Below, piece after piece: positions 48,943 through 64,000 of a stretch of 64,000 bases of DNA. Location: positions 8,003,501 through 8,067,500 of the forward strand of contig NZ_JAPEMB010000001.1 of assembly GCF_026343125.1 (NCBI RefSeq), in the 5' to 3' direction. A program made the position numbers and the translations under genes. The notes beneath the pieces were generated by a model, which saw only the letters and a list, made by a program, of their open reading frames with translations, was not told the origin of the DNA and did not search any database. The stretch is from Streptomyces sp. NBC_00094 (GTDB taxonomy: Bacteria > Actinomycetota > Actinomycetes > Streptomycetales > Streptomycetaceae). Position 1 is the stretch's first letter. Each line of letters starts with the position of its first letter.

Positions 48943-51780
48943 CTAGTGGCCGATCCGCCGCCACTGCTGGCCGGTGCCGCCGTCGGCCGTCTGCTGCTCG
49001 ATCGTCGCGAGGTCGGCCGTCGAGTCGCCGGTCACGCCCAGCACCTTGCCGCTGCGGGCGCAGGTGATGACGACGTGTCCGTCGCCCGTGTCGGTGATCT
49101 CCCACTGCTGGTTGGTGGCGTGCGACGTGTGCCACTGGAGGAGCGGCGCGCCGTCGGCCGACGAGCCGCCGCCGATGTCCCACGCCAGCGGGGTGCCGCC
49201 GTGCGTGGTGGAGATCTCGTAGAGCCCGCCTCCGACCGGGATGAAGCGGAACTGCTGGTTGGCGGACGAGCTCGGGGTGTACTGGATCAGTACCGTGCCG
49301 GCCGAGGTGGAGGCGTTGGGGACGTCGATCGCCCGTCCCGAGTTGCGGTTGATCAACTGGAAGACGTCGTACTGCGCGGGCGGCGTGACGGTGACTGAGC
49401 CCGCCGAAGGGATGGTCACGGTCTGGCTCCACGAACCGAAGACCACCTTCGTCGAACGGCCGGCCGTGCCGCGCAGCGTGGCGCTGGTGACCTGCCCCGA
49501 AGACCAGCTCAGGTCGACGGTGAGACCGCCCCGCACCCCGATGCCGGTGACCGAGCCGGAGGCCGCCCACGCCTTCGGCAGGGCGGGCAGCAGCTCGACC
49601 CGGCCCGGGCGGGACTGGACCAGCATCTCGACCATCGCGGCCGGTGTGCCGTAGTTGCCGTCGATCTGGAAGATGTAGCCGCTGCCGTAGCGGTACATGT
49701 CGAACATGTTGATCGCGGTGCCGGCGGCCGCGCTCCCCGTCGGCTGCAGCACGGAGAGCATGAGGTCGTACGCCTTCTCGGCGTGCTTCAGCCGCGCCCA
49801 GCACAAGGCACGCCAGGCGCTGGCCCAGCCGTAGCTCGCGAGGCCCCGGGCCTCCAGCAGCTTGGTGGCGCCCGTGACGAGAGCGGCGGGGGAGTCCTGG
49901 AGGTTGATGCGGTCGCCCGGGAAGAGGCCCATGTGCGCGGAGAGGTGACGGTGGGTGGTGTCGCCGAGGTTGTCATCGCTCATCCACTCCTCGAGCCAAC
50001 CGCTCGTGGCGCTGACCTGCGGCATGTAGAGCTTGTCCTGGAGCCCCCCGATGGTGGAGGCGTACGCGGCGTCGTTGCCGAGCAGGGCGGCCGCGGCACG
50101 GAAGTTCGCGAACAGCTGCCAGACCAGTTCCTGGGCGTAGGTGTTGCCACGGGTGTCCTCCGGACCGTGCTCCGGCGACCAGTCGTGGTCGTCGACCAGG
50201 ACCTCGCGCCCCGCCACGGTCATCGTGACCAGTCGCGCCTCCCAGAACTCGCAGGCGCCCTTGAGCAGCGGGTAGATCCTGGCGAGGTGCGCGGTGTCCT
50301 GGGTGTACTCGTAGTGCTCGTAGAGCGAGTTGCAGATCCAGGCGTTGCCGGCCGGGTGCCACCACCAGCCGTTGCCGCCCCAGACGTTGGTCGAGAAGGC
50401 CAGGGTCCACCCGGCCACCCGGCCGGAGGTGTTGCGGTACCGGTTGCGAGGGTCCTGGAAGAGGTTCGTGGTGGCCGCCCGCCACCCCGGCAGCTGGGCG
50501 ACACAGTAGTCGGTGAGCGCGTCGAAGCACTCGGGCAGGCCGACCCGGTCGGGCAGCCAGTAGTTCATCTCGATGTTGACGTCGTTGTGGTAGTCGGAGA
50601 ACCACGGGGGCTCGTTGCTGTCGACCCACAGGCCCTGGAGGTTGGTCGGCAGGCTGCCGCGCGATCCGGTGATCGTCAGGTAGCGGCCGAACTGCAGGTA
50701 GGAGGCTTCCAGCTCGGGGTCCGGGGTCGCACCGGCCGCACGCGCGGCGAGCCGGGCGGGGGTGTCCAGGGCCCGCTGCGCCGCCGTGGAGACGCCCAGG
50801 TTCACCGCCATCCGCTGCTGGAGGTCCTGGAAGTCGGCGACGTGCGTGGCGAGCAGGGTCGAGCCCGCGACCGCGGCGGCCCGCGAGGCCTTGGCGCGGG
50901 CGACGGTCAGCGGTACGAGGGAGGTGTTCTTGTACGCGACGGAGTGGTCGGCCTTGTAGTTGGTGCCGCCGGAGAGCACGAGCACGACCTCGGTGCAGTT
51001 GCCGAACGTCACCTTGGCGCCGGTGGCCGACACGGTGCCGCCGGTGCCGACGGCCTTGACCAGGGTCGCGTACGTGAGTGTGTTCGGCAGAGCGGTCGCG
51101 AACGACACCTCCGCGGCCTGGGCGTTCCGGGAGACCGTCTCGCCGCGGGTGCCCGCGAGCGTCATCGAGCCGGTGTAGGAACCGCCGCCGCTCTGGGTCA
51201 GGCGGACGATGATCACGTCGTCCGGGTGGCTCGAGAACACCTCCCGCCGATAGGTCACGCCACCCAGCTTGTACGAGGCCGTGACCAGGCCGTTGCTCAT
51301 GTCCAGCGTGCGACGGTAGTCGGTGATCGCCGTCGTGGTGTGGGCCGGGATGTCGAGGTAGGCCTTGGCGAGCATGCCGAACGTGCCGAAGCCGCCCGCG
51401 TCGTACGAGAACTGACCGTCGGACTGCAGGACGGCGTTGGCGTGACCGGTCCACAGGGTCGCGTCCGCGAGGACCAGGCAGTCGTGTGAGGGGTCGCCGG
51501 TCACCAGGGCTCCGAGTCGGCCGTTGCCGACGGGCAGACCCTCCTCGATCACCTCGGCCTCGGTGCCGGGCTGTGCGTACCAGAGCGTGACCGCCTCGCT
51601 TTCGGGCACCAGCGCCAGGCTGCCGGCGGTGCGCGCGGCGGCGGCGGCCGGCGCGGTGAACTCGGGCAGCGACGAGAGCGCGAACACCGCGCCGAGGGAA
51701 GCGGCTGCGCGCAGCAGTCCGCGACGGGACACGTCCGCCGGCTCTTCGGCGGCGGAGTGGGCACGGGGGTGGGAGGTCAT
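48943..51780 (-). CDS. Secreted GH95 alpha-L-fucosidase with ricin-type C-terminal lectin (945 aa)
   Basis: Twin-arginine signal DVSRRGLLRAAASLGAVFAL cleaved near AAAA (about residue 50). GH95 catalytic region: NDVNIEMNYWLPDRVGLPEC (Asn nucleophile-assist region), DHDWSPEHGPEDTRGNTYAQ (general-acid Glu in SPE) and GYIFQIDGNYGTPAAMVEML (Asp). Residues about 810-945 (VFQLINRNSGRAIDVPNAST; QQWEITDTGDGHVVITCARS) form a ricin-B/CBM13 domain. Secreted to release L-fucose (or L-galactose) from glycans. ATG has AAGGAG. Divergent from lutA and at the head of the fucose island. Confidence 0.93.
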   Translation of the reverse strand: MTSHPRAHSAAEEPADVSRRGLLRAAASLGAVFALSSLPEFTAPAAAAARTAGSLALVPESEAVTLWYAQPGTEAEVIEEGLPVGNGRLGALVTGDPSHDCLVLADATLWTGHANAVLQSDGQFSYDAGGFGTFGMLAKAYLDIPAHTTTAITDYRRTLDMSNGLVTASYKLGGVTYRREVFSSHPDDVIIVRLTQSGGGSYTGSMTLAGTRGETVSRNAQAAEVSFATALPNTLTYATLVKAVGTGGTVSATGAKVTFGNCTEVVLVLSGGTNYKADHSVAYKNTSLVPLTVARAKASRAAAVAGSTLLATHVADFQDLQQRMAVNLGVSTAAQRALDTPARLAARAAGATPDPELEASYLQFGRYLTITGSRGSLPTNLQGLWVDSNEPPWFSDYHNDVNIEMNYWLPDRVGLPECFDALTDYCVAQLPGWRAATTNLFQDPRNRYRNTSGRVAGWTLAFSTNVWGGNGWWWHPAGNAWICNSLYEHYEYTQDTAHLARIYPLLKGACEFWEARLVTMTVAGREVLVDDHDWSPEHGPEDTRGNTYAQELVWQLFANFRAAAALLGNDAAYASTIGGLQDKLYMPQVSATSGWLEEWMSDDNLGDTTHRHLSAHMGLFPGDRINLQDSPAALVTGATKLLEARGLASYGWASAWRALCWARLKHAEKAYDLMLSVLQPTGSAAAGTAINMFDMYRYGSGYIFQIDGNYGTPAAMVEMLVQSRPGRVELLPALPKAWAASGSVTGIGVRGGLTVDLSWSSGQVTSATLRGTAGRSTKVVFGSWSQTVTIPSAGSVTVTPPAQYDVFQLINRNSGRAIDVPNASTSAGTVLIQYTPSSSANQQFRFIPVGGGLYEISTTHGGTPLAWDIGGGSSADGAPLLQWHTSHATNQQWEITDTGDGHVVITCARSGKVLGVTGDSTADLATIEQQTADGGTGQQWRRIGH

Positions 51781-52115
51781 GGCCTGACGGCTCCTTCTAG
51801 GGGGTGCGGGCCGGAGTCGGCGACAGGGCAGAAGTGCACGCCAGTCAGGAAGGGACGTCAAGAGATTCGACGAAAATCCCTATAGGAAAAATCGCCATGC
51901 GCGGCGGGCGAACTCGAATGCTCCGCCAAGAGGGGTGGTTTGCTGGTGTATCTGCCGAAAGATAAGAGGTGGTGACCTCGCGGTGGCTGCCGGTAGAGGG
52001 TGCTTTCCTATGGGATGCAGATGGCTCGCGAGTATGACCGCTCCGTGGCGGGCTCCTGGTGATTTCGGTTCGACCCCCGTAAGGTCGGACCATACTTTTC
52101 CCTGAGGAGGACCAC
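51781..52115. promoter_or_regulatory. Divergent control region between fucosidase gene and lutA
   Basis: A motif pair, ATCCCTATAGGAAA (51876-51889) and, inverted, TTTCCTATGGGAT (52004-52016), faces both genes and could be an operator or promoter element. The palindrome at 52079-52095 is listed separately. No gene is supported. Confidence 0.5.
52079..52095. promoter_or_regulatory. GntR/FCD-type operator before lutA
   Basis: GTAAGGTCGGACCATAC is palindromic apart from one position pair around the centre (GTA-n-GGTC-n-GACC-n-TAC). It stands 21 bases before the lutA ATG, just upstream of its GAGGAGG SD. By position it would block lut transcription when bound. Confidence 0.7.
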
Positions 52116-52883
52116 ATGCGCATCGGACTCTTCGCCACCTGCCTGGGGGACACCCTGTTTCCCGACGCGGTGCGGGCGACGGCTCTGCTGCTGAGCCGCC
52201 TCGGCCACGAACTGGTCTTCCCACCGGACCAGACCTGCTGCGGACAGATGCACCTCAACACCGGCTACCAGCGCGAACCCGTGCCGCTGATCAGGAACTT
52301 CGCGGAGCAGTTCGGCGACACCTCCATCGACGCCGTCGTCATGCCCTCCGGTTCCTGCGCCGGGTGCGTCCGGCACCAGCACATGACCGTGGCCGACCGC
52401 TACGGCGACGCGGCGCTGCGCGCCGGGGTCGCGGCGGTGAAGGACAAGACGTACGAGCTCTCCGAGTTCCTGGTCGACGTCGCCGGTACCGTCGACGTCG
52501 GCGCGTACTTCCCCCACCGCGTCACCTACCACCCCACATGCCACTCCCTTCGGATGCTGCGGGTGGGCGACAAACCGCTGCGACTGCTGCGCGAGGTCGA
52601 AGGCATCGACCTCGTCGAACTCCCCGAGGCCGACGCCTGCTGCGGCTTCGGAGGCACCTTCGCCGTCAAGAACGCCGCCACCTCCTCCGCCATGCTGGCC
52701 GACAAACTCGACCATGTGACCTCCACGGGCGCCGCCGTGTGCACCGCGGGCGACTCCTCCTGCCTCATGCACATCGGCGGCGGCCTGTCCCGGATCAGTT
52801 CCGGGACACGCACGCTGCACCTCGCCGAGATCCTCGCGGCCACCCACACCGCGCCCCACGCCCTGACGGAGGCCGCACGATGA
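52116..52883 (+). CDS. lutA: LutA, lactate-utilisation Fe-S oxidoreductase subunit (255 aa)
   Basis: Two CCG domains: ETC motif QTCCGQMHLNTGYQ and ADACCGFGGTFAVKN, with SGSCAGCVRHQH and YHPTCHSLRML supplying further Cys. These bind the [4Fe-4S] clusters of the LutABC L-lactate dehydrogenase. Cytoplasmic, at the membrane. SD GAGGAGG at 52104-52110. Overlaps lutB by ATGA. Would oxidise L-lactate to pyruvate. Confidence 0.93.
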   Translation: MRIGLFATCLGDTLFPDAVRATALLLSRLGHELVFPPDQTCCGQMHLNTGYQREPVPLIRNFAEQFGDTSIDAVVMPSGSCAGCVRHQHMTVADRYGDAALRAGVAAVKDKTYELSEFLVDVAGTVDVGAYFPHRVTYHPTCHSLRMLRVGDKPLRLLREVEGIDLVELPEADACCGFGGTFAVKNAATSSAMLADKLDHVTSTGAAVCTAGDSSCLMHIGGGLSRISSGTRTLHLAEILAATHTAPHALTEAAR

Positions 52884-54421
52884 GCAGCACGTTCCTCGGG
52901 ATGCCGGCCAGGCCGCCCCGTTCCCCGTACGGCGAGGGCCATCTGCGCGGCGACCAGGCGTTCCCGCAGGCCGCCGCGCGCGAACTGGGCAACCGGCAAC
53001 TGCGCGACAACCTCCACAAGGCGACGCGCACCATCCGCGCCAAGCGGCTCGCCGTCACCGCCGAACTCCCCGACTGGGAGGAACTGCGCTCCGCCGGAGC
53101 CGCCCTCAAGAACGAGGCCATGAGCCGGCTGCCCGAACTCCTCGAACAGCTGGAGGCGAAGGTCACCGAGGCCGGCGGCACCGTGCACTGGGCCCGGGAT
53201 GCCGCGGAGGCGAACGCCCTCGTCGCCGAGCTGGTCGCCGCCACCGGCAGCCGGGAGGTCATCAAGGTCAAGTCGATGGCCACCCAGGAGATCGGCCTCA
53301 ACGAGTACCTGGAGAGCCAGGGCGTCACCGCTCACGAGACCGACCTCGCCGAACTGATCGTGCAGCTCGCCGACGACCGCCCCTCCCACATCCTCGTTCC
53401 CGCGATCCACCGCAACCGCGAGGAGATCCGCCGCATCTTCCTCGAACGGATCCCGGGTGTCGACCCCGACCTGACCTCCGTCCCCGCCGAACTCGCCGCC
53501 GCCGCGCGGGCGTACCTGCGCGAGAAGTTCATGACCGTCCCCGTGGCCGTCTCGGGCGCCAACTTCGGCATCGCCGAGACCGGCACCCTGTCCGTCGTGG
53601 AGTCCGAGGGCAACGGCCGGATGTGTCTGACCCTCCCGAAGACGCTGATCACCGTCATGGGCATCGAGAAGGTCCTGCCCCGCTACGCCGACCTGGAGGT
53701 CTTCCTCCAGCTGCTGCCCCGCTCCTCCACCGGCGAGCGCATGAACCCGTACACCACGCTGTGGACCGGAGTGACCCCCGGCGACGGGCCGCAGGAGTTC
53801 CACCTGGTCCTCCTCGACAACGGACGCACCGCCGCGCTCGCCGACGCCGTCGGCCGGGAGGCCCTCAACTGCATCCGCTGCTCGGCCTGCCTCAACGTCT
53901 GCCCGGTCTACGAACGGGTCGGAGGACACGCGTACGGCTCGACCTACCCCGGCCCGATCGGTGCCGTCCTCACCCCGCAGCTCGCCGGCACCCACGCCGC
54001 GAAGGACGACCCCAACGCCTCGCTGCCGTACGCCTCGACGCTGTGCGGAGCCTGCTACGACGCCTGCCCCGTCAAGATCGACATCCCGTCCCTGCTCGTG
54101 GAACTGCGCCACCAGACCACCGAGCGGACAGGACGCGGCGCCGAACAGCTCGCGATGAAGGCAGTGGCCGCCGTCATGGGCCGCCCGAAGCTCTACCGGG
54201 CGGCGCAGAAGGCCGCCGCGATCGGTCGGATCGCCGCCGGGCGTGACGGGACGATCTCGCGTCTCCCACCACCGCTGAGCGGCTGGAGCGAGAGCCGGGA
54301 CACCCCCGCCCCGCCTCGCCGGACCTTCCGCGACTGGTACGCCTCCGAGGAGGGACGGCGCGCCCTCGCGGCCGCCGCCGAACACCAGGACCTCGACGAG
54401 ACCCCCGAGGGGGAACGATGA
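52880..54421 (+). CDS. lutB: LutB, ferredoxin-type iron-sulfur subunit (513 aa)
   Basis: N-terminal DUF162/LUD domain (ELPDWEELRSAGAALKNEAM; VSGANFGIAETGTLSVVESE) and C-terminal two-cluster ferredoxin: CIRCSACLNVCPVYERVGG and CGACYDACPVKIDIP. Length and order match LutB. Coupled at both ends (ATGA with lutA and lutC). The tail (residues 460-513) is variable. Confidence 0.94.
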   Translation: MSSTFLGMPARPPRSPYGEGHLRGDQAFPQAAARELGNRQLRDNLHKATRTIRAKRLAVTAELPDWEELRSAGAALKNEAMSRLPELLEQLEAKVTEAGGTVHWARDAAEANALVAELVAATGSREVIKVKSMATQEIGLNEYLESQGVTAHETDLAELIVQLADDRPSHILVPAIHRNREEIRRIFLERIPGVDPDLTSVPAELAAAARAYLREKFMTVPVAVSGANFGIAETGTLSVVESEGNGRMCLTLPKTLITVMGIEKVLPRYADLEVFLQLLPRSSTGERMNPYTTLWTGVTPGDGPQEFHLVLLDNGRTAALADAVGREALNCIRCSACLNVCPVYERVGGHAYGSTYPGPIGAVLTPQLAGTHAAKDDPNASLPYASTLCGACYDACPVKIDIPSLLVELRHQTTERTGRGAEQLAMKAVAAVMGRPKLYRAAQKAAAIGRIAAGRDGTISRLPPPLSGWSESRDTPAPPRRTFRDWYASEEGRRALAAAAEHQDLDETPEGER

Positions 54422-55059
54422 CCACACGCGACACCGCACGCGACACCGTGCTCGGCCGTGTCCACGACGCGCTGGGCCTGGCCCCCCGGAGCCCCGTCGC
54501 CGTGCCCCGCGACTACCGGCGGGGCCGCACCCTGCCGGACGACGAGCGGCTCGGTCTGTTCACCGACCGACTCGTCGACTACCAGGCCCAGGTGCACACC
54601 TGCACGTCCGCCGAGACCCCGGCCACCCTCGCCTCCGTCCTCACCCGCCTCTCCGCCTCCCGCGTCGGCTTCCCCGCCGGACTGGACCCCGCCTGGCTCG
54701 TCGACTGGCACGGCGAAGCGGTCGAGGACCGGGCCGACGTACCCGCCCCGGACCTCTCGGCACTCGACGCCGTGGTGACGGCCTCGGCGGCGGGCTGTGC
54801 CGAGACCGGGACGATCTTCCTCGACGGCTCGGCCGACCAGGGCCGCCGCGCGCTGACCCTCGTACCCGATGCCCACGTGTGCGTGGTGGACCTCTCCCAG
54901 GTCGCCGTCGGCGTCCCGGAGGCCCTGGCCCGGCTGGTGCCCGAACGGCCGACCACGTTGATCAGCGGACCGTCCGCCACCTCCGACATCGAGCTGGAGC
55001 GTGTGGAGGGCGTCCACGGCCCCCGCACCCTGATCGTGGTCGTCCGTACCGACGCCTGA
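54418..55059 (+). CDS. lutC: LutC, LUD-domain subunit (213 aa)
   Basis: LUD domain protein: VVTASAAGCAETGTIFLDGS, ALTLVPDAHVCVVDLSQVAV, TTLISGPSATSDIELERVEG (the SxTADIE-like motif), ending LIVVVRTDA. ATGA overlap with lutB. Completes the LutABC set; the GntR gene follows after 122 bases, containing a CGTGATCACG palindrome (55120-55129). Confidence 0.93.
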   Translation: MTTRDTARDTVLGRVHDALGLAPRSPVAVPRDYRRGRTLPDDERLGLFTDRLVDYQAQVHTCTSAETPATLASVLTRLSASRVGFPAGLDPAWLVDWHGEAVEDRADVPAPDLSALDAVVTASAAGCAETGTIFLDGSADQGRRALTLVPDAHVCVVDLSQVAVGVPEALARLVPERPTTLISGPSATSDIELERVEGVHGPRTLIVVVRTDA

Positions 55060-55119
55060 GCCGACGCCCGAACCGAGGCGGGTGTCGGCGCCCGTCGCGG
55101 TCGGCCCGCCACCGTCGTA

Positions 55120-55129
55120 CGTGATCACG
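55120..55129. promoter_or_regulatory. CGTGATCACG palindrome before the gntR gene
   Basis: A perfect 10-bp palindrome 53 bases upstream of the gntR start, in the gap after lutC. Could be a promoter operator of the regulator gene. No relation to the GGTC-n-GACC site at lutA is evident. Confidence 0.35.
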
Positions 55130-55181
55130 CCCCGGGTAAACTGGCCCCGCCCCGACACGTCGTACCACGGAGGAGTCCCGG

Positions 55182-55895
55182 ATGCCGGCAGACGACCCGT
55201 CCGTCTCCGCGTCCGGGAGGACCGGCCGCCCGGCGCCGCCGCCCGCCCGCCAGGTCCTCTCCGACAGCGTGTACGAGCGGATCAAGGCGATGGTCATGGA
55301 CCACGAGATCGCCCCCGGCGCCCGCGTGGGTATCGAGGCCCTGGCGCGCGGCCTCGATGTCTCGCCGACTCCCATCCGTGAAGCACTGGCCCGCCTGGAG
55401 GCCGACGGCCTCGTCGTCAAGCGCTCGCTCTCCGGATACCGGGCGACCGAGCTGCTGACGAGGGACGGCGTCGAGGAGCTCTTCGAGATGCGCATGCTCC
55501 TGGAACCGCACGCGGCGGCGCTGGCCGCGCTCAACGCCGACGAGGGCCAGCTGGACGTCCTGGAGGCGATCCAGGAGGACATGCAGTCCCACCCGGGACC
55601 GAGCGGTCCCTACGCCGCCTACCGCGACTTCGCCGGGCTGGACCAGCGCTTCCACGACGCCGTCGCCCAAGCGGCCCACCGGCCCCTGCTCGCGGACGCG
55701 GTCGAACGGCTCCACTCGCATCTGCACATCTTCCGCCTCAGCAGCCTGCCCCACGCCGACGACCCGACCGCGACGGAGCACGATCGGGTCGTCCGGGCCA
55801 TACTGCGCCGCAGCGCCGACCGGGCTGCCGAGGCGATGAGGGACCACCTCACCCGCAGCCTGGAGCGCCAGCTCAGCCGGTTCGACGAGGAGTGA
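55182..55895 (+). CDS. GntR-family (FadR/FCD) regulator of the lactate/fucose locus (237 aa)
   Basis: wHTH residues 28-95 (SVYERIKAMVMDHEIAPGAR, GLDVSPTPIREALARLEADG), FCD ligand domain 105-230 with probable metal ligands in GLDQRFHDAVAQAAHRPLLA, LHSHLHIF and EHDRVVRAI. LldR/LutR-like in context. GGAGGAG SD. Best candidate for binding the 52079-52095 palindrome; effector probably lactate or a fucose-pathway acid. Confidence 0.9.
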   Translation: MPADDPSVSASGRTGRPAPPPARQVLSDSVYERIKAMVMDHEIAPGARVGIEALARGLDVSPTPIREALARLEADGLVVKRSLSGYRATELLTRDGVEELFEMRMLLEPHAAALAALNADEGQLDVLEAIQEDMQSHPGPSGPYAAYRDFAGLDQRFHDAVAQAAHRPLLADAVERLHSHLHIFRLSSLPHADDPTATEHDRVVRAILRRSADRAAEAMRDHLTRSLERQLSRFDEE

Positions 55896-55928
55896 CCGAG
55901 CCGGCCCGGCACCCAGGAGGACCGAGGA

Positions 55929-55948
55929 GGCAGCGGGATCGCGCTGCC
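55929..55948. terminator. Bidirectional hairpin between gntR and the fucose operon
   Basis: GGCAGCG (55929-55935) and CGCTGCC (55942-55948) form a 7-bp stem with a 6-base loop in the 60-base gap between convergent genes. Confidence 0.6.
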
Positions 55949-55955
55949 GGCAGCG

Positions 55956-56816
55956 TCACTCGGAGGCCGTCCTCGGCATCCGGTACACCCTCCGCGCGGT
56001 CCCGGACCACACCGCGTCCCGCTCGGCGGCGGAGAGCGCCGCGATCAGCTCCCCGGTGAGGTCGACGACCTCGCCGTAGCTCGCCGCGAGCGTGCACACC
56101 GGCCAGTCCGAGCCGAACATCACGCGCCGCGGGCCGAAGAGATCGAGCACCGTGTCGGCGTACGGCGCGAGACCGGCCACGGTCCAGGACCGCCAGTCCG
56201 CCTCGGTCACAAGCCCGGACAGCTTGCACACGGTGTTCGGCAGGGCGGCCAGCTCCCGCACCCGGTCCGACCACGGCCCGAGCCGCCCGGACGCGACCGG
56301 TGGCTTGCCGAGATGGTCCAGGACGAAGGTGAGCCCCGGAACCGCCGCAGCCGCCCGCGTCGCGGCCGGCAGTTGGTGCGGCAGCACGACCAGGTCGTAC
56401 GCGAGCCCGGCCGCGGCCACCGCGCGCAACCCCCGCATCACCTCGGGCCGGGTCAGCCACTCCGGGTCGGCCTCGCCCTGGACCTGGTGGCGGATCGAGC
56501 GGAGGAACCCGCCGCCGGGCAGCGACCGCAGCCGGGCCAGTTCGTCCGCGACACCGGGGGAGGTGAGGTCGGTCCAGCCGACCACCGCCCCGACGAGTGC
56601 GCTCCGGGCGGCCAGGGCGAGGAATTCCGGGGTCTCCTCGGCGACGGTGACCGTCTGGACCAGGACCGTCGCCGTCACCCCGGCGGCCCGGGCCTCCGCC
56701 TCCAGCTCCGGAAGGAGGAACGAACGCCGCAACGGGGCGAGTTCCGGCCCGGTGATCCAGGTCTGGTCGCGAACCCCGAGGTCCCACAGGTGGTGATGGG
56801 CGTCGACGAGGGTCAC
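55956..56816 (-). CDS. Amidohydrolase-2 family lactonase, probable L-fucono-1,5-lactonase (286 aa)
   Basis: VDAHHHLWDLGVRDQTWITG gives the HxH metal motif, FVLDHLGKPPVA and VMFGSDWPVC further ligands. This is the fold of L-fucono-1,5-lactonase and related sugar lactonases. Located last in the operon; GTG start overlaps the AKR stop (GTGA). Predicted to open fuconolactone produced by the dehydrogenase. Confidence 0.85.
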   Translation of the reverse strand: MTLVDAHHHLWDLGVRDQTWITGPELAPLRRSFLLPELEAEARAAGVTATVLVQTVTVAEETPEFLALAARSALVGAVVGWTDLTSPGVADELARLRSLPGGGFLRSIRHQVQGEADPEWLTRPEVMRGLRAVAAAGLAYDLVVLPHQLPAATRAAAAVPGLTFVLDHLGKPPVASGRLGPWSDRVRELAALPNTVCKLSGLVTEADWRSWTVAGLAPYADTVLDLFGPRRVMFGSDWPVCTLAASYGEVVDLTGELIAALSAAERDAVWSGTARRVYRMPRTASE

Positions 56817-57841
56817 GGCGCCCGCCTCTCCGGCACCGGCACACCGGCCGGCAGCAGCCCCTCGGCGCGCAGGTCCTCCCACACGTCGGCGGGCAGGAGG
56901 CGGCCGAACTGCTCCGCCGCGTCGCGGACCTGGTCCGCCGAGCGCGCCCCGACCAGCACCGAGGCGACCGCCGGGTGTCCGAAGGGGAAGCGGAGTGCCG
57001 CCGCCCGCAGCGGCACCCCGGCCGCCTCCGTGACGTTCCCCATCCGCAGGGCCCGGCCGACGAGTTCGTCGGAGGCTTCGGCGTAGTCGTAGGTGACACC
57101 CGGAGCGGGCGCCGCCAACAGGCCGGAGTTGAACACCCCTCCGATGATCACGCTCTTCCCCGCCGCCTCGGCGGCGGGGAGCAGGTCCTCCGACGCCCCC
57201 TGTTCGAGCAGGGTGTACCGACCCGCGCACAGCACCGCGTCGACATCGGTGTCCCGCACGAACCGCGTCAGCATCCCCGTCCGGTTCATCCCGACACCGA
57301 TGGCCCCCACGACCCCCTGGGAGCGGAGCTCCTCGAGAGCCGGGTACGCCTCGCCGAACGCCTGCTCCGCGTGGTCGTCGGGGTCGTGGAGGAGGACCAG
57401 GTCGATCCGGTCGAGGCCAAGACGGGTGAGGCTGTCCTCCAGGGACCGGCGGACACCGTCGGCGCTGAAGTCCCAGCGGCGCCGGTGGGTGGCCGGGACG
57501 GCGAAGCCGTTGGCCCGGTCGTCGCCCCCGCCGTCGTACGGTTCGAGGACCCGGCCCACTTTGGTGGACAGGGTGTACGCGTGACGGGGCCGGTTCCGCA
57601 GTGCCGCGCCGAGTCGGCGTTCCGACAGGCCGAGGCCGTAGTGCGGAGCGGTGTCGAAGTAGCGGATACCGGCGTCCCAGGCCGCTTCCACGGCAGCGGC
57701 CGCCTCCTCCTCGCCCACGTCCTCGTACAGCCCCGCGACCGCCGCGCCGCCGAAACCGAGGGCCGTGACCAGGACCCCGCTGTCGCCGAGGGGACGGCAG
57801 GGCAGCACGGCCCCCGTACCGTTCTCCCCGGCGGGGGTCAT
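56813..57841 (-). CDS. Aldo/keto reductase, probable L-fucose dehydrogenase (342 aa)
   Basis: AKR tetrad: Asp and Tyr in AGIRYFDTAPHYGLGLSERR, Lys in TLSTKVGR, His in DLVLLHDPDD. Domain order and length fit the bacterial D-threo-aldose/L-fucose dehydrogenase type. Start ATG overlaps the SDR stop (TGATG). It would oxidise L-fucose to fuconolactone; assigned from family plus operon. Confidence 0.85.
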   Translation of the reverse strand: MTPAGENGTGAVLPCRPLGDSGVLVTALGFGGAAVAGLYEDVGEEEAAAAVEAAWDAGIRYFDTAPHYGLGLSERRLGAALRNRPRHAYTLSTKVGRVLEPYDGGGDDRANGFAVPATHRRRWDFSADGVRRSLEDSLTRLGLDRIDLVLLHDPDDHAEQAFGEAYPALEELRSQGVVGAIGVGMNRTGMLTRFVRDTDVDAVLCAGRYTLLEQGASEDLLPAAEAAGKSVIIGGVFNSGLLAAPAPGVTYDYAEASDELVGRALRMGNVTEAAGVPLRAAALRFPFGHPAVASVLVGARSADQVRDAAEQFGRLLPADVWEDLRAEGLLPAGVPVPERRAP

Positions 57842-58596
57842 CACCTGGCCTCCGGGCGCAACCGCAGCCCCTGCATCCCGCCGTCGACCGCCAGCGCGGT
57901 CCCCGTGACGGAGGCGGCGGCCGGGCTCGCCAGGTACACGATCGCGGCGGCGACCTCCTCGGCGGAGACGAGCCGGCCCATGGGCTGGCGCGCGTTCAGG
58001 GCGGCCCGCTCGGCGGTCGGATCCGCGGCCTGGTCGAGGAGGCGGCCCACCCACGGGGTGTCCGCCGTGCCCGGGTTGACGCAGTTGACCCGGATGCCCT
58101 CCCGCACGTGGTCCGCCGCCATCGCCAGCGTCAGGGACAGCACCGCGCCCTTGCTCGCGCTGTACAGGGCGCGCTGCTGGAGACCGGCGGTCGCCGCGAT
58201 CGAGCAGGTGTTGACGACGGCGGCGTGCGCGGACGCCCGCAGATGCGGCAGCGCCGCGCGGGTCGTGCGGACCATGCCGACCACGTTGACGTCGAGGACC
58301 CACTGCCACAGTTCGTCGTCGTTGTCCTCGACCGTCCCCACCGCGCCGATCCCGGCGTTGTTGACGAGGATGTCGAGCCCGCCGAGGTCCTCGGCCGCGG
58401 CGGCCACCGCGGCGCGTACGGACACGTCGTCGGACACGTCGGCCTTGTACCCGCGCAGCGGCTCGCCGACAGCGGTCGGGTCGAGGTCCAGTACGGCGAC
58501 GTCGGCGCCGCGCTCGGCCAGCAGGTCGGCGGTCGCCCGGCCGATGCCGGACGCGCCACCCGTCACCAGCGCCTTCAGTCCGGACAGTTCACTCAT
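57841..58596 (-). CDS. SDR dehydrogenase, probable 2-keto-3-deoxy-L-fuconate dehydrogenase (251 aa)
   Basis: [20 protein letters not shown] (GxxxGxG), [14 protein letters not shown], and active site Ser/Tyr/Lys in [31 protein letters not shown] overlap with the dehydratase gene. In this order it would oxidise the 4-hydroxyl of 2-keto-3-deoxyfuconate; acting instead as L-fucose dehydrogenase is possible. Confidence 0.82.
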
Positions 58597-59951
58597 CGGT
58601 TCGTCTCCCTCGGCTGATCGGACGCCTGTGCGGCGAGGTCGGCGGCCCAGAAGCCGCCGTCCGGGTAGCGGTAGGTGGCGAGCGACCCGGCGTGCATCTC
58701 GGACGAGAAGCCGGGGAGCGTCGGGGCCGTGTAGTGCCCGTCCACGATCGTCACCGGGTCCATGAAGTGCTCGTGCAGGTGGTCCACGTACTCGATCACA
58801 CGGTTCTCCGTCGTTCCCGACAGGGCGACGAAGTCGAACATGGACAGATGGCGGACCAGTTCGCACAGACCGACGCCGCCCGCGTGCGGGCAGACCGGCA
58901 CGCCGTACTTCGCCGCCAGCAGCAGGATGGCGAGGTTCTCGTTGACCCCGCCGACGCGGGCGGCGTCGATCTGGAGCACGTCGATCGCGCCGACCTGGAG
59001 GAGCTGCTTGAAAACGATGCGGTTCTGGACGTGCTCGCCGGTGGCGACCTTGACCGGGGCCACGCTCTCGCGGACGGTGGCGTGGCCGAGGATGTCGTCG
59101 GGGCTCGTCGGTTCCTCGATCCAGTACGGGTCGAACTCCGTGAGGGCCTTGGTCCACGCGACGGCCTCGGCGATGTTCCAGCGCTGGTTGGCGTCGATCG
59201 CGATGCGGATGTCCGGGCCGACGGCCTCGCGCGCCGTACGCATCCGGCGGATGTCGTCCGCGAGGTCGGCGCCGACCTTCAGCTTGATCTGGGTGAAGCC
59301 GTCGGCGACGGCCTCGCGGGCGAGGCGGGTGAGCTTCTCGTCGGAGTAGCCGAGCCACCCGGGCGAGGTGGTGTAGCCGGGGTAGCCCCGGTCCAGCAGC
59401 TGCGCCTCCCGCTCGGCCGCGCCCTTCCTGCCCTCGCGCAGCAGGGCCACCGCCTCGTCGGGGCGCAGGGCGTCCTCGATGTACCGGTAGTCGACCTGAC
59501 GGGCGAGCCATTCCGGTGAGGCGTCGGCGAGGAGCTTCCAGACCGGCTTGCCCGCCCGCTTCGCCGCCAGGTCCCAGACGGCGTTGACCACGGCGCCGAT
59601 CGCCATGTGGATCACGCCCTTCTCGGGCCCCAGCCAGCGCAGCTGGCTGTCCTCGTTCAGGGCGCGGCTGACCAGTCCCGGGTCGGCGCACACCGCGTCG
59701 ACCGACAGACCCACGACGTGCGGGCGCAGTGCGGCGATCGCCGCCGCCTGCACCTCGTTGCCGCGGCCGATGGTGAACGCGAAGGCATGGCCCTCCAGCC
59801 CGTCGCCCGCGTCGGTCCGCAGGATGACGTAGGCCGCCGAGTAGTCGGGATCGGGGTTCATCGCGTCGGAGCCGTCGAGCTCCCGCGAGGTGGGGAAGCG
59901 GACGTCGATCACGTCGACGTCGGTGAGACGTGCCGTGGTGTCGTTGCTCAT
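58593..59951 (-). CDS. L-fuconate dehydratase, enolase superfamily (452 aa)
   Basis: Start [20 protein letters not shown] and [17 protein letters not shown] are nearly diagnostic of L-fuconate dehydratase (FucD). Catalytic elements: [11 protein letters not shown] (Lys pair), [11 protein letters not shown] (Asp/Asn), [12 protein letters not shown] (Glu), [10 protein letters not shown] (Glu), CPHAGGVGL (His). Dehydrates L-fuconate to 2-keto-3-deoxy-L-fuconate. Middle of a coupled operon. Confidence 0.93.
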
Positions 59952-59957
59952 GTCGCC

Positions 59958-60809
59958 TCACGCGTCCCGGAACGTCTGCCGCTGGCGGCCGAGTCCGTCG
60001 ATCTCGAGCTCGACCGTGTCGCCGGCTCGCAGGTAGGGGTTGCCCGGCAGCCCGAGGGCGACACCGGCGGGGGTTCCCGTGTTGATGACGTCACCGGGCT
60101 CCAGGACCATGTACTGACTCAGGTACCAGACCAGATAGGCCACCGGGAAGATCATGTTCGCGGTGGTGCCGTCCTGCCGGGACACACCGTTGACGCTCAG
60201 CCGCAGACCGAGGGCCTGCGGGTCGGGCACCTCGTCGGACGTCACCAGCCACGGGCCGAGCGGGTTGAAGGTCTCGCAGGACTTGCCGAGATCCCACTGC
60301 GGGGACAGCTCCAGCTGGAAGGCGCGTTCGGAGACGTCATGGCTGAGCGCGTACCCCGCGATCACCGCCGCGGCGTCGGACGGGCCGTCCAGGTAGCGGG
60401 CCCGCCGCCCGATCACCACCGCGAGCTCCACCTCCCAGTCGGTCTTGACCGAACCACGGGGGACGAGGACGGGGTCGCGGGGACCGACGACGGTGCCGGG
60501 GTCCTTCATGAAGACCACCGGGCGCTCCGGCACGGCGGCTCCCGTCTCCTCGGCGTGGTCGCGGTAGTTGAGGCCGACGCACACCACCTTGCCGGGCCGG
60601 GCGACGGGCGCGCCGACGCGCGAGTCCGTCGCGTCCACGACGGGCAGCGAGCCGGCCAGCAGGGCGGCGGCCACCCGGTCGACGCCGCCGCCGGCCAGGA
60701 ACGGCCCGTCGATGTCGTCGGTCAGGGCGCTGAGGTCGTGGACGCGTCCGTCGTCGGCGAGGACGGCCGGGCGCTCCTCGCCCGGAGCTCCGAGGCGCAG
60801 CAGTTTCAC
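59958..60809 (-). CDS. FAH-family hydrolase, probable 2,4-diketo-3-deoxy-L-fuconate hydrolase (283 aa)
   Basis: Fumarylacetoacetase fold: KVVCVGLNYRDHAEETGAAV, metal acids in TDWEVELAVVIGRRARYLDG and FLDG-type QYMVLEPGDVINTGTPAGVA. Would cleave the diketo acid to pyruvate plus L-lactate, the step linking this operon to LutABC. Starts MKLLRLGAPGEERPAV with AGGAG upstream; 73 bases from the mutarotase gene. Confidence 0.87.
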   Translation of the reverse strand: MKLLRLGAPGEERPAVLADDGRVHDLSALTDDIDGPFLAGGGVDRVAAALLAGSLPVVDATDSRVGAPVARPGKVVCVGLNYRDHAEETGAAVPERPVVFMKDPGTVVGPRDPVLVPRGSVKTDWEVELAVVIGRRARYLDGPSDAAAVIAGYALSHDVSERAFQLELSPQWDLGKSCETFNPLGPWLVTSDEVPDPQALGLRLSVNGVSRQDGTTANMIFPVAYLVWYLSQYMVLEPGDVINTGTPAGVALGLPGNPYLRAGDTVELEIDGLGRQRQTFRDA

Positions 60810-60881
60810 GTGGTTCTCCTTGCGGGCGCGGCGCCGTGGCGCCGCGGGGCGGTTCGGGATCGTCGGGGTGGCGGGCGGAGG

Positions 60882-61205
60882 TCATTCCATGAGGAACACC
60901 TGCTCCATGGCGGCCCACCACTCGCCGGGCGCGGCCTCGTCGACGGGCTGCTGGCAGGGGGAGGTGAGCCGCCACCAGTCGTGGGTGGCGGGGTCGGCGG
61001 CCATCGCGGCGAGGTCGGCCGCCAGGTCCTCGCCGTGGTACTCGAAGTAGCCGAACAGGCGGTCCCCGAGCAGGTGGATCGAGTAGTTGGCGATGTGGCA
61101 GCGCCGCAGCCGGTCGAGGACGGCCTCGGGTACCTCGCGGTGCAGCCGCCGGTAGTCCTCCGCCTTCTCGGGCAGGACGTGGACGACCTGGGCGACGCGT
61201 CTCAC
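60882..61205 (-). CDS. L-rhamnose/L-fucose mutarotase (RhaM-like, 107 aa)
   Basis: MRRVAQVVHVLPEKAEDYRR, RRCHIANYSIHLLGDRLFGY, FEYHGEDL with catalytic His/Tyr, and the end THDWWRLTSPCQQPVDEAAP. This is the dimeric RhaM fold that interconverts anomers of 6-deoxy sugars. It suggests the imported sugar is a 6-deoxyhexose; in this operon L-fucose is the better fit. ATGA overlap with the ABC ATPase. Confidence 0.88.
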   Translation of the reverse strand: MRRVAQVVHVLPEKAEDYRRLHREVPEAVLDRLRRCHIANYSIHLLGDRLFGYFEYHGEDLAADLAAMAADPATHDWWRLTSPCQQPVDEAAPGEWWAAMEQVFLME

Positions 61206-62746
61206 GCGGCCCCGCCCTTCGCCGGTTCGGCCTCGTCCGCGCGGTCGTGGATGACGCGGATGATCCGGCCGCTCATCCGCTCGTAGTCGTGGTCGTTGGC
61301 CACCTCGCCGCGGATCCGGTGGCCGGCCATCACGACGACCCGGTCGGCCAGCGTCACCATCTCGGCCAGGTCACTGCTGATCAACAGGATCGGCAGACCG
61401 CCGCGGGCCAGTTCCCAGATCAGCTCGTGGAAGGCGTGCTTGGTCCGTACGTCCACCCCGACGGTCGGCTCGTCCACGACCAGCAGCCGGGTGTCGGCCG
61501 CCAGCCACTTCGACAGGCTGACCTTCTGCTGGTTCCCGCCCGACAACTCACCGGCGTTCTGCCCGAGACCGGAGATCCTGATGCCGAGGCGCTCGACGAG
61601 GTCCTCGGCGGTCTCGCGTTCACGGCGGGAGGGGACGTACCCGAAGGCGTTCGCCAGCCTCCTCCACACCGTCACGGTGATGTTGCGGAGGATGGGCTGC
61701 TCGAGGAAGACACCCTCCTCCTTGCGGTTCTCCGTCAGATAGCCGATCCCGTACTCGTGCAGTGCCTGCCGAGGCGAGCCGATCCGCACGGGCTCTCCGT
61801 ACACGCGGATCTCACCGCCGGTGACACGGTCCAGACCGAGCACCGCCTTGACGAGTTCACTGCGCCCCGCGCCGACCAGCCCGTACAGCCCGACGATCTC
61901 CCCGGGCCGTACGTCGAGCGAGATGTCCCGGTGCCCCGAGGCCGTCGAGAGCCCGGTGAGGGAGAGCGCGGGCGCCGCCGACATGTCCACGGGACGCGGG
62001 GTCATCGCGGTCACCGCGTGGGCACGTCCGACCATCAGGGTCACGACGTCGTCCTGGGTGTGCTCCGCGAGCGGCGCCGACTCCAGTACGGACCGGCCGT
62101 CGCGCAGGACGGTGACGGTGTCGCAGACCGCGAAGACCTCCTCCAGTTTGTGACTGACGAAGACCACGCACGTACCGCGCGCGGTGAGCCGCCGGACGAC
62201 GTCGAAGAGGCGCTCGGCCTCCTGCGGCGAGAGCGAGGCGGTCGGTTCGTCGAGCAGGAGGACCCGGCTCTCGGTGTGGAGCGCCTTGGCGATCTCCACC
62301 AACTGCTGCTGGGCTACCGAGAGTTCGCTCACCGACAGGTGGGGATCGATGTCGAGTCCGAGCTCGGCCAGGCACCGCAGGGCCGGAGCCGTCATGGCCT
62401 CCCGGTCGACCAGGCCGCGGCGCGAGGGCGGGTTCTGCAGAGTGATGTTCTCGGCCACGGAGAACCCGGGGATCAGGTTGCGTTCCTGGTGGACGACGCC
62501 GATGCCGGCGCGCGTGGCGTCCAGGGGGGAGCGCGGGTGGATCTCCCGGCCGCCCCGGAGCAGCCTGCCGCCCTCGGGCGCGTGCACGCCGGTGATCACC
62601 TTGATGAGCGTGGACTTGCCCGCCCCGTTCTCGCCCAGCAGGGCGTGCACGGAGCCGGCCGTGAGCCGCAGACCGACACCGTCGAGCGCGCGGACACCGG
62701 GGAAGACCTTGACGATCCGATCGCATTCCAGCAGGACTTCGCTCAT
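61202..62746 (-). CDS. Sugar ABC importer ATPase, RbsA-type double NBD (514 aa)
   Basis: Two nucleotide-binding halves: first with GENGAGKSTLIKVITG, LSVAQQQLVEIAKAL and VLLLDEPTASLS; second with GLVGAGRSELVKAVLG (degenerate Walker A), LSGGNQQKVSLSKWL and LLVVDEPTVGVD. Typical of ribose/rhamnose/fucose CUT2 importers. Coupled to both permease and mutarotase genes. Confidence 0.95.
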   Translation of the reverse strand: MSEVLLECDRIVKVFPGVRALDGVGLRLTAGSVHALLGENGAGKSTLIKVITGVHAPEGGRLLRGGREIHPRSPLDATRAGIGVVHQERNLIPGFSVAENITLQNPPSRRGLVDREAMTAPALRCLAELGLDIDPHLSVSELSVAQQQLVEIAKALHTESRVLLLDEPTASLSPQEAERLFDVVRRLTARGTCVVFVSHKLEEVFAVCDTVTVLRDGRSVLESAPLAEHTQDDVVTLMVGRAHAVTAMTPRPVDMSAAPALSLTGLSTASGHRDISLDVRPGEIVGLYGLVGAGRSELVKAVLGLDRVTGGEIRVYGEPVRIGSPRQALHEYGIGYLTENRKEEGVFLEQPILRNITVTVWRRLANAFGYVPSRRERETAEDLVERLGIRISGLGQNAGELSGGNQQKVSLSKWLAADTRLLVVDEPTVGVDVRTKHAFHELIWELARGGLPILLISSDLAEMVTLADRVVVMAGHRIRGEVANDHDYERMSGRIIRVIHDRADEAEPAKGGAA

Positions 62747-63825
62747 CGTGCCTCTCCCGTCGGCGTCGGCGTCGGTACGGCCGTCGGCCGGGGTGTCCCC
62801 TCAGGTGGTGCCGTGGGAGCGCAGCCGGGCGTCCTGCCCTTCCTGTCGAGATGGTTCTGGTGGACCCGGCCGCCGACGACCGTGCCGAGGACGACCACCC
62901 CGATGAGGAAGTTGACCCAGCTCGGGTCGAGGGAGAACTGTGCCCGCGCGGTGTCGATCAGACGCATCACGAAGGCCGCGAGAACGGTCCCCAGGACCGC
63001 GACGGAGCCGCCGGTCAGGGCCACCCCGCCGATGATGGGTGCGGCGAAGCTGGGCAGCAGCCAGTCGCCGCCGACGCTGCGGTTGACCCCCGGCAGCGAG
63101 GCGGTGGCGGTCATCGCGGCGATGCCCACGAGCAGCCCGGACAGGGTGTGCGCGAGCACGATCTGCCGGTCGGTGGAGATGCCCGACAGCCTGGCGGCCA
63201 GTGGGTTCCCGCCGGACGCCAGCAGCCGCCGCCCCGCGACGGTGCGGTACATGAACCCGGCGAGGAGGACGGCCGCGGCCAGGGCCGTGACGAAGACCAG
63301 CGGGATGTTCAGCGGCGCGGCGCGGCCGAGGTCGCGCAGCGTCGCGGAGTACCCGTCGATCGTGCGGGTCCCCGAGAGGCGGTACTGCGCCCCCAGCAGG
63401 ATGGTCATGGTGCCCAGCGTCACGATGAAGCCGTTGATGCGCGTGACGACGATGAACACGCCGGTCAGCAGGCCGATCAGGGTCGCGCCCAGGACGCCGA
63501 TCAGCACGGCGAGCCCGGCCGGGACGCCCGCGTCGGCCATCAGGACGCCCATCAGGCAGGCGCTGAACCCGCCCAGCGCCCCGACCGCCAGGTTGAGCTG
63601 CCCCACGCACAGGGCGACCATCTGGGCAAGCCCGATGAGGATCGGTGTGGCGAGGTACTGCAGGAACGTACGGACGGAGGGCCCTTCGAAGAAGGTGCCG
63701 GACGAGGAGACGCCGAGAGCGACGTAGCCGACGAGGACCACGGCGAGCAGGGTGGTCGTCGTGGAGCGCGAGAAGCGGCGCAACGCGGACCGAGCCGCCG
63801 CCTTCCGGTCCTGGAACGGGGTCAT
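62743..63825 (-). CDS. Sugar ABC permease 1, CUT2 family (360 aa)
   Basis: About eight to nine membrane helices; VALCVGQLNLAVGALGGFSA is the conserved permease motif (GxDLSVG-like) and RRLLASGGNPLAARLSGIST the EAA-like loop (GxNxxAARxSGI). The C-terminal 45 residues are a soluble Pro/Thr tail. Starts overlapping the next permease stop as ATGA. Confidence 0.93.
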   Translation of the reverse strand: MTPFQDRKAAARSALRRFSRSTTTTLLAVVLVGYVALGVSSSGTFFEGPSVRTFLQYLATPILIGLAQMVALCVGQLNLAVGALGGFSACLMGVLMADAGVPAGLAVLIGVLGATLIGLLTGVFIVVTRINGFIVTLGTMTILLGAQYRLSGTRTIDGYSATLRDLGRAAPLNIPLVFVTALAAAVLLAGFMYRTVAGRRLLASGGNPLAARLSGISTDRQIVLAHTLSGLLVGIAAMTATASLPGVNRSVGGDWLLPSFAAPIIGGVALTGGSVAVLGTVLAAFVMRLIDTARAQFSLDPSWVNFLIGVVVLGTVVGGRVHQNHLDRKGRTPGCAPTAPPEGTPRPTAVPTPTPTGEAR

Positions 63826-64000
63826 GTGGAACGCACCACCTTGCGGTAGGACACGACGGTGCGAACCCGGTCGGCGGACAGGGCCAGGAGCAGGACGCAG
63901 CCGAGGTAGATGTTGAGGCTTTCGAGGCCGACGCCGAGCAGGTCCAGGCCCTTGCGGATGACGCCGACGAGCGTCGTGCCGAGCAGCGCCCCGAGGACGG
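63822..64000 (-). CDS. Sugar ABC permease 2, C-terminal part cut by window edge
   Basis: Reading from the right edge, the last 59 codons give ALLGTTLVGVIRKGLDLLGV, GLESLNIYLGCVLLLALSAD, RVRTVVSYRKV and a stop that overlaps the first permease's ATG. This is a CUT2 permease C-terminus. The sugar-binding lipoprotein and any further fucose genes must lie beyond 64 kb. Confidence 0.85.
   Translation of the reverse strand, partial: VLGALLGTTLVGVIRKGLDLLGVGLESLNIYLGCVLLLALSADRVRTVVSYRKVVRST

Follow-up and report, generated by a model that had tools for sequence, protein, structure and literature searches.

A predicted L-fucose utilisation island interleaved with a lactate oxidation operon in Streptomyces sp. 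NBC_00094

The oxidation of the lactate that a deoxyhexose route releases has a described precedent in rhamnose regulons, in a paper reportedly by Rodionova and others, and the lldEFG genes named there are what we take to be genes of the LutABC type. In the available excerpts of that paper, lldD and lldEFG are reported inside the rhamnose (RhaR) regulons of certain Actinomycetales and Rhodobacterales; for rhamnose, the principle has therefore already been published (PMC3870299). For L-fucose, excerpts of a second paper describe route 3 (FucM, FucA, FucB, FucC, FucF and FucG) in Herbaspirillum, Xanthomonas and Acidovorax, which ends in pyruvate and L-lactate and whose named enzymes come from proteobacteria (PMC11199699). 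A non-phosphorylated L-fucose pathway to pyruvate and lactate is also predicted for Actinospongicola halichondriae, according to the available part of the report (PMC12263773). In this work, we focus on a locus of Streptomyces sp. NBC_00094 in which lutABC, a predicted L-lactate oxidation operon, stands among the genes of a predicted L-fucose route. The whole stretch that was analysed, termed the window (64,000 nucleotides), covers bases 8003501-8067500 of contig 1 of this two-contig genome.

Our reading, to which we give a probability of roughly 70%, is that a general-type L-lactate oxidation operon was built into an L-fucose utilisation island at this locus, and that LutABC would respond both to fucose and to lactate derived from it. 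The GH95 fucosidase would free L-fucose outside the cell and the CUT2 importer would take it up; the mutarotase, an aldo/keto reductase (AKR), the lactonase, L-fuconate dehydratase (FucD), a short-chain dehydrogenase/reductase (SDR) and an FAH-fold hydrolase would then convert it to pyruvate and L-lactate, and LutABC would oxidise this lactate to pyruvate.

Gene content and the predicted fucose route

An earlier note on this DNA, made from the letters alone, had proposed one block with GH95, CUT2 importer, mutarotase, AKR, lactonase, FucD, SDR and FAH genes. All of them are present, and every gene that it named was found on the strand and in the order it gave, with a Pfam match above the cut-off. 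Its nine-gene operon has to be enlarged: the predicted fucose operon counts 11 genes, is cut by the window end and extends 3.1 kb further on the same contig (neighbouring stretch L007), where it adds permease 1, a second enolase-superfamily enzyme and the substrate-binding protein (SBP). The SBP gene comes first in the operon, whose promoter is located beyond the window end. GH95 and lutA are divergent, while lutABC and the regulator gene GntR1 point toward the 3' end of the fucose operon. The features are as follows, coordinates above 64000 being window-equivalent and read from L007.

48943..51861, minus strand: GH95 (alpha-L-fucosidase family) with a ricin-B C-terminus (PF22124, PF14498, PF21307, PF14200)
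52116..52883, plus strand: lutA, cysteine-rich (CCG) protein (PF02754)
52880..54421, plus strand: lutB, predicted L-lactate oxidation iron-sulfur protein (TIGR00273, 456.7 bits vs cut-off 444.8)
54418..55059, plus strand: lutC, LUD domain (PF02589)
55182..55895, plus strand: GntR1, GntR/FCD regulator, predicted fucose type (Pfam; identity to GntR2; mapped relatives)
55956..56816, minus strand: L-fucono-1,5-lactonase-like amidohydrolase (PF04909; 4dlf, 190 bits)
56813..57841, minus strand: AKR, probable L-fucose 1-dehydrogenase (PF00248)
57841..58596, minus strand: SDR, probable L-2-keto-3-deoxyfuconate 4-dehydrogenase (8xwk, 8y4j and 8y11 among the six best solved relatives)
58593..59951, minus strand: FucD, predicted L-fuconate dehydratase (1yey, 681.6 bits, 432 residues)
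59958..60809, minus strand: FAH-fold hydrolase, probable L-2,4-diketo-3-deoxyfuconate hydrolase (8gsr, 237.5 bits)
60882..61205, minus strand: predicted L-fucose mutarotase (PF05336; 7byu, 7byw)
61202..62746, minus strand: CUT2 sugar ABC ATPase (two ABC_tran stretches)
62743..63825, minus strand: CUT2 permease 2 (PF02653)
63822..64898, minus strand: CUT2 permease 1, cut by the window end (window part 63822..64000; L007)
64895-66091 (L007 2395-3591), minus strand, in the operon: second enolase-superfamily enzyme
start 67119, minus strand, in the operon: SBP, first operon gene (L007)
67286-68002, plus strand: GntR2, GntR/FCD regulator facing the operon promoter (L007)
68062-68859, plus strand: GntR3, probable LutR, 59 bases after GntR2 (L007)

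FucD reaches 681.6 bits over 432 residues against the L-fuconate dehydratase of Xanthomonas (1yey), vs about 89 bits against L-rhamnonate dehydratases, and it holds the motifs KLKVG, DANQRW, EEPTSP, TGEH and CPHAGG, which we take to be catalytic. The sole solved relatives of the mutarotase at E<=0.001 are 7byu and 7byw, both L-fucose mutarotase, and the lactonase finds 4dlf (190 bits) at the top of its three solved relatives. The SDR has 8xwk, 8y4j and 8y11 within its six best solved relatives, and these three are the L-2-keto-3-deoxyfuconate 4-dehydrogenase (L-KDFDH) of Herbaspirillum huttiense, as given in the excerpts of PMC11199699. The best match of the FAH protein is an L-rhamnose-route enzyme, and the same excerpts state that one diketo intermediate is common to the fucose and rhamnose routes and yields pyruvate and L-lactate on hydrolysis (PMC11199699). 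FucD, the mutarotase, the lactonase and FAH by their best match, and the SDR among its six best, appear then to have relatives in the L-fucose route or at the corresponding step of the L-rhamnose route, and candidates for both the L-KDF 4-dehydrogenase (SDR) and the diketo hydrolase (FAH) are encoded. The substrate of the AKR is the least certain of the pathway enzymes. The non-phosphorylating L-fucose route to pyruvate and L-lactate that the earlier note had drawn is thus borne out at the level of sequence, by the solved relatives and by the available text of PMC11199699.

A scan of the 20 proteins from 48943 to 68859, not extended to the remainder of the genome, found no RhaEW aldolase-dehydrogenase, rhamnose isomerase or kinase. 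The second enolase-superfamily enzyme resembles 3,6-anhydro-L-galactonate cycloisomerase and talarate/galactarate dehydratases; among the 34 loci that carry GntR1 relatives in other genomes, its gene adjoins SBP and permease genes in 23, even without fucose enzymes nearby. The N, catalytic and C domains of GH95 (PF14498, PF22124, PF21307) are all above their cut-offs; judged by eye, the real start of this gene (48943-51861) is likely near 51783 and its product has a twin-arginine start. A GH95 paralogue lies about 281 kb from the fucose island (L008 6167-9013, contig 1 about 7768167-7771013), with a second box-like site, seen by eye, near its promoter. Directly past LutR, L007 6458-9707 holds frames that by eye resemble a GH35-type beta-galactosidase and a CUT1 substrate-binding protein.

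The lutA, lutB and lutC genes are present in that order, with LutB above the curated TIGR00273 cut-off, and LutABC would on these matches oxidise L-lactate to pyruvate. A single LutB match was reported in this genome (E<=1e-60; 7 of 30 first-look candidates scored). In a check for another L-lactate dehydrogenase, the sole full-length FMN_dh protein of the genome fell far below the cut-offs of LldD (236 vs 550 bits) and of L-lactate oxidase (225 vs 646 bits) and is left unassigned.

Recurrence of the joining and the layout of the window

The earlier note had called the joining of fucosidase, operon and LutABC unusual in an actinomycete. The joining is real and the layout of the window was seen nowhere else among the mapped loci, but 9 of the 80 named FucD loci, the best 80 of 594, have LutB in their flanking DNA of up to 10 kb. 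Position alone would give about 0.24 such loci in 80, assuming a genome of 8.5 Mb with 1.3 LutB, a comparison in which related genomes are not independent. Genomes very close to that of the window may be missing from the 80 loci, some of which run into contig ends. Those with LutB belong to Streptomyces, Kitasatospora, Streptacidiphilus, Peterkaempfera, Catenulispora, Actinocorallia and Actinoplanes. Among 199 genomes of the genus, FucD is present in at least 128 and LutB in at least 192, and the two are at most 20 kb apart in at least 10 genomes including this one (printed positions compared by eye). The nearest mapped gene before lutA is an AKR or lactonase gene, always on the same strand, in 21 of 65 lut loci; the hit-to-hit gap is 4-41 bases in 19 of these 21, and 497 and 630 bases in L075 and L062. 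A joining unique to this strain is ruled out by the other FucD and GntR1 loci with lut. The homologue search that the earlier note had suggested does retrieve fucose-lut joinings in several actinomycete genera, though the exact order of the window in none of those mapped.

In order to follow these joinings on a tree of 65 LutB proteins, a locus was termed linked when it carried at least two of FucD, FAH, AKR, lactonase and mutarotase at >=55% identity within 12 kb, the row of the window being labelled linked by hand. The starred branches of this tree force at least three changes between linked and unlinked, and fucose-lut joinings arose independently at least three times among related actinomycetes. 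The LutB of the window falls in a clade of 16 members (100/100), of which the other 15 are all unlinked (type A, the stand-alone lut units). A second clade, type B1 (99/99), is linked in 20 of 20 members, and a third, of 24, contains three linked members (L186, L187 and L189, where lutABC lies near mutarotase and FAH genes) and 21 unlinked ones. The 15 type-A loci were taken from 36 listed LutB matches at >=79% identity and the remaining LutB loci were picked from the match list, not at random; the rows L192 and L134 have long branches. L182 was left out because stop codons shorten its LutB reading to 317 residues; this locus (genome G105) is a fucose-lut cluster with a window-type transporter, two GntR genes and a LutB interrupted by those stop codons. 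In L128 (Streptomyces griseoflavus), a lone LutA-like stretch (38% identity) lies between AKR and lactonase at about 13.1 kb, with no LutB or LutC match.

What is unusual here is that the lut operon comes from a clade otherwise separate from fucose genes and is interleaved with fucose regulator genes. In the window, lutABC stands between GH95 and GntR1, and lutR (GntR3) lies past the fucose operon, behind GntR2, a layout absent from the other mapped loci (80 FucD, 34 GntR1 and 15 type-A lut loci). In the type-A clade, LutB stands apart from fucose genes in all 15 fetched relatives and is 80-83% identical to that of the window; the nearest mapped gene before lutA is each time a GntR3 relative on the same strand (15 of 15), 69-80% identical to GntR3, with a hit-to-hit gap to lutA of 126-4097 bases. 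The nearest fucose cluster of the same build, that of G166 (L063), runs GntR2, SBP ... lactonase, GntR1, GH95 with no lut, and the lut unit of this genome is about 269 kb away from it. DNA alignment places homology to the GH95 side of G166 up to 51891 and homology to stand-alone lut units from about 52038, and it gave no clear match to the G166 promoter in the lutC-GntR1 interval.

Regulators and predicted operators

The earlier note had placed LutABC together with a GntR regulator between GH95 and the operon. The position stands, but GntR1 is read as a fucose-type regulator and the probable LutR is the third GntR protein, at 68062-68859. GntR1 shares 65.6% identity with GntR2, against about 25% with GntR3; its relatives in 34 other genomes (among 392 searched) come with the CUT2/second-enolase unit in 23 of 34 loci, and lut lies within the stretch in only four (L182, L186, L187 and L189). 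GntR1 as the lactate regulator is rejected on these identities and on the gene neighbourhoods of its relatives. Apart from one 32% match, GntR3 is unique in the genome at E<=1e-15.

Two predicted operators can be recognised, the fucose box TCCTATNNGATTC, noticed in promoters of the window and of G166, and the LutR box TATGGTCSGACCATA. Around the GH95-lutA interval they are found at three places.

51875..51887, minus strand: weak fucose box TCCTATAGGGATT of the GH95 promoter, with 3 mismatches; the alignment to the region upstream of the G166 GH95 gene, which reaches 51891, includes it
52006..52018, plus strand: fucose box TCCTATGGGATGC, 1 mismatch, between GH95 and lutA (pattern search)
52080..52094, plus strand: LutR box TAAGGTCGGACCATA, 1 mismatch, ending 21 bases before lutA (pattern search)

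The exact fucose box occurs only twice in the 8.19 Mb genome, where 0.34 copies are expected by composition: one copy, at 67138, precedes the 11-gene operon, and the other precedes the GH95 paralogue by about 250 bases. Allowing one mismatch raises the count to eight sites in the genome, among them that at 52006 before lutA; this last box falls between the G166-like and the stand-alone-lut-like stretches, and G166 holds a fucose box at a like place (L063 14930). In the other genomes, 28 of the 34 GntR1 loci carry the box with at most one mismatch, for 49 matches in total and none for the reversed-pattern control. None of the 49 is inside a mapped gene, and most are beside the starts of SBP, FucD, GH95 or GntR genes. 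Since the window and L063 are where the box was originally spotted by eye, 27 of 33 is the independent part of this count.

Within 300 bases upstream of lutA and at <=2 mismatches, all 15 type-A loci have the LutR box and none of the 50 other lut loci has it; this search found none in type-B1 lut loci. In this genome, the LutR box is present before lutA and again between GntR2 and GntR3 (one mismatch each), the latter copy being as expected for a LutR that would regulate itself.

From these positions, we infer that GntR1 and GntR2 would bind the fucose box before the 11-gene operon and before both GH95 genes, and so also beside lutA, while LutR would bind the LutR box before lutA and before its own gene. 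Most likely, the fucose-type GntR proteins would repress the operon, both GH95 genes and, partly, lutABC-GntR1 until fucose or an intermediate appears, and L-lactate from the route would then lift LutR. With fucose boxes and a LutR box between GH95 and lutA, and a LutR box before lutR, LutABC may thus answer to fucose as well as to lactate.

Competing explanations and comparison with known systems

Several observations weigh against a fucose island with a built-in lut operon. Among the enzymes, the lactonase scores 228 bits against NCBIfam NF052480 (L-fucono-1,5-lactonase), below its cut-off of 400; the top solved relative of the SDR is an unassigned oxidoreductase (4dqx), those of the AKR are L-galactose dehydrogenases, and that of FAH, which is below the curated cut-off of NCBIfam NF053535, is the L-2,4-diketo-3-deoxyrhamnonate hydrolase of the L-rhamnose route (8gsr, 237.5 bits). 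The operon also carries the second enolase-superfamily enzyme. As for regulation, no fucose gene accompanies five of the eight fucose-box sites found at up to one mismatch, and the reversed pattern gives two; 6 of the 34 GntR1 loci lack the box, in two of which (L163 and L182) the stretch ends short of the SBP promoter. The fucose boxes close to lutA may control only GH95, and that on the GH95 side has three mismatches; three further exact LutR-box cores lie without a clear lactate gene, 1.5 being expected by composition. Finally, the layout of the window is known from one assembly. To describe these sites further, an overlapping pair of single-mismatch fucose boxes near 730371 adjoins a frame that by eye resembles a LysR-type regulator, and the extra LutR-box cores, are on contig 1 at 5448400, within an open frame, at 5611987, close to a pyruvate-kinase-like frame, and at 5665908, ahead of ABC-exporter-like frames (names given by eye).

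Part of this evidence could be taken to mean that lutABC is a chance neighbour with its own LutR box and regulator, responding to lactate only and parked beside GH95 by a rearrangement, which we consider unlikely. Such an origin would suit the LutR box adjoining lutA, the start of the stand-alone-lut alignment at about 52038 and the restriction of the layout to this genome; GH95 needs fucose boxes anyway, and the G166 cluster has them without lut. It sits poorly with the recurrence of the lut-fucose joining, at least three times on the LutB tree and above the positional expectation, and with the fact that lutABC and lutR flank the fucose operon, each beside a fucose-type GntR gene. We strongly doubt that the operon acts mainly on another sugar, be it L-galactose, D-arabinose or L-rhamnose, the last of which would still form lactate. 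L-galactose or D-arabinose would give glycerate or glycolate in place of lactate, and the repeated pairing with LutABC fits a lactate-forming substrate. The L-galactose dehydrogenases nearest the AKR, the rhamnose-route match of FAH and the second enolase-superfamily enzyme all speak for another sugar; against it stand the FucD scores, a mutarotase that matches the L-fucose enzyme only, the box-like sites at both GH95 genes and, in the excerpts of PMC11199699, the identity of the fucose and rhamnose diketo intermediates.

The L-fucose island with its built-in lactate oxidation operon thus remains our preferred reading. A further-reaching version of it has in our view about even chances. There, the one LutABC detected in this genome would have been captured by the fucose regulon, with a promoter that holds fucose boxes and a LutR box and with lutR as the second gene behind a fucose regulator, and the sensing of fucose and lactate would be cross-wired. 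Actinomycete fucose clusters would then have captured lactate oxidation at least three times independently, this being one case, and one of the captures would have yielded a fucose-dedicated LutABC clade. The repeated independent joining is strong natural evidence for L-lactate as the real end product of the actinomycete fucose route, and the type-B1 LutABC clade has the appearance of a lactate-oxidation enzyme that serves a single sugar pathway. The promoter region of the window combines two kinds of predicted operator, and for the fucose uptake and GH95 genes of some Streptomyces the fucose box supplies a predicted operator.

Our literature searches, judged from the listings, returned no paper describing a fucose-lut cluster in an actinomycete. 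Compared with route 3 as described in the available excerpts, the window operon has candidate counterparts of all six steps and the same predicted end products (PMC11199699); it differs by its AKR-type dehydrogenase, its CUT2 importer, the extra enolase-superfamily gene, the two GntR regulators and the LutABC alongside. The predicted fucose route of A. halichondriae likewise leads to pyruvate and lactate in an actinobacterial genome, whereas a joining to lactate oxidation is not mentioned in the part of that report available (PMC12263773). The window shares with the RhaR regulons that contain lldEFG, as excerpted, a lactate dehydrogenase that would carry a deoxyhexose route on to pyruvate (PMC3870299). 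Those regulons concern L-rhamnose and the RhaEW route, whereas the window would concern non-phosphorylated L-fucose, with a lut operon that keeps its own LutR box. Like the stand-alone type-A lut unit of Streptomyces (a GntR3 relative and lutABC), the window has a similar LutB, a similar regulator and the conserved LutR box, but its lutABC and lutR are on opposite sides of the fucose operon. The type-B1 lut genes, in or beside the fucose operons of several actinomycete genera, resemble it in joining lutABC with FAH, FucD, SDR, AKR or lactonase genes; unlike the window, they form a separate LutB clade, are in line with the fucose genes and have no LutR box that was found. The enzymes and LutABC are already known, the link between fucose and lut genes is recurring and well supported, and it is the regulatory arrangement that is unusual.

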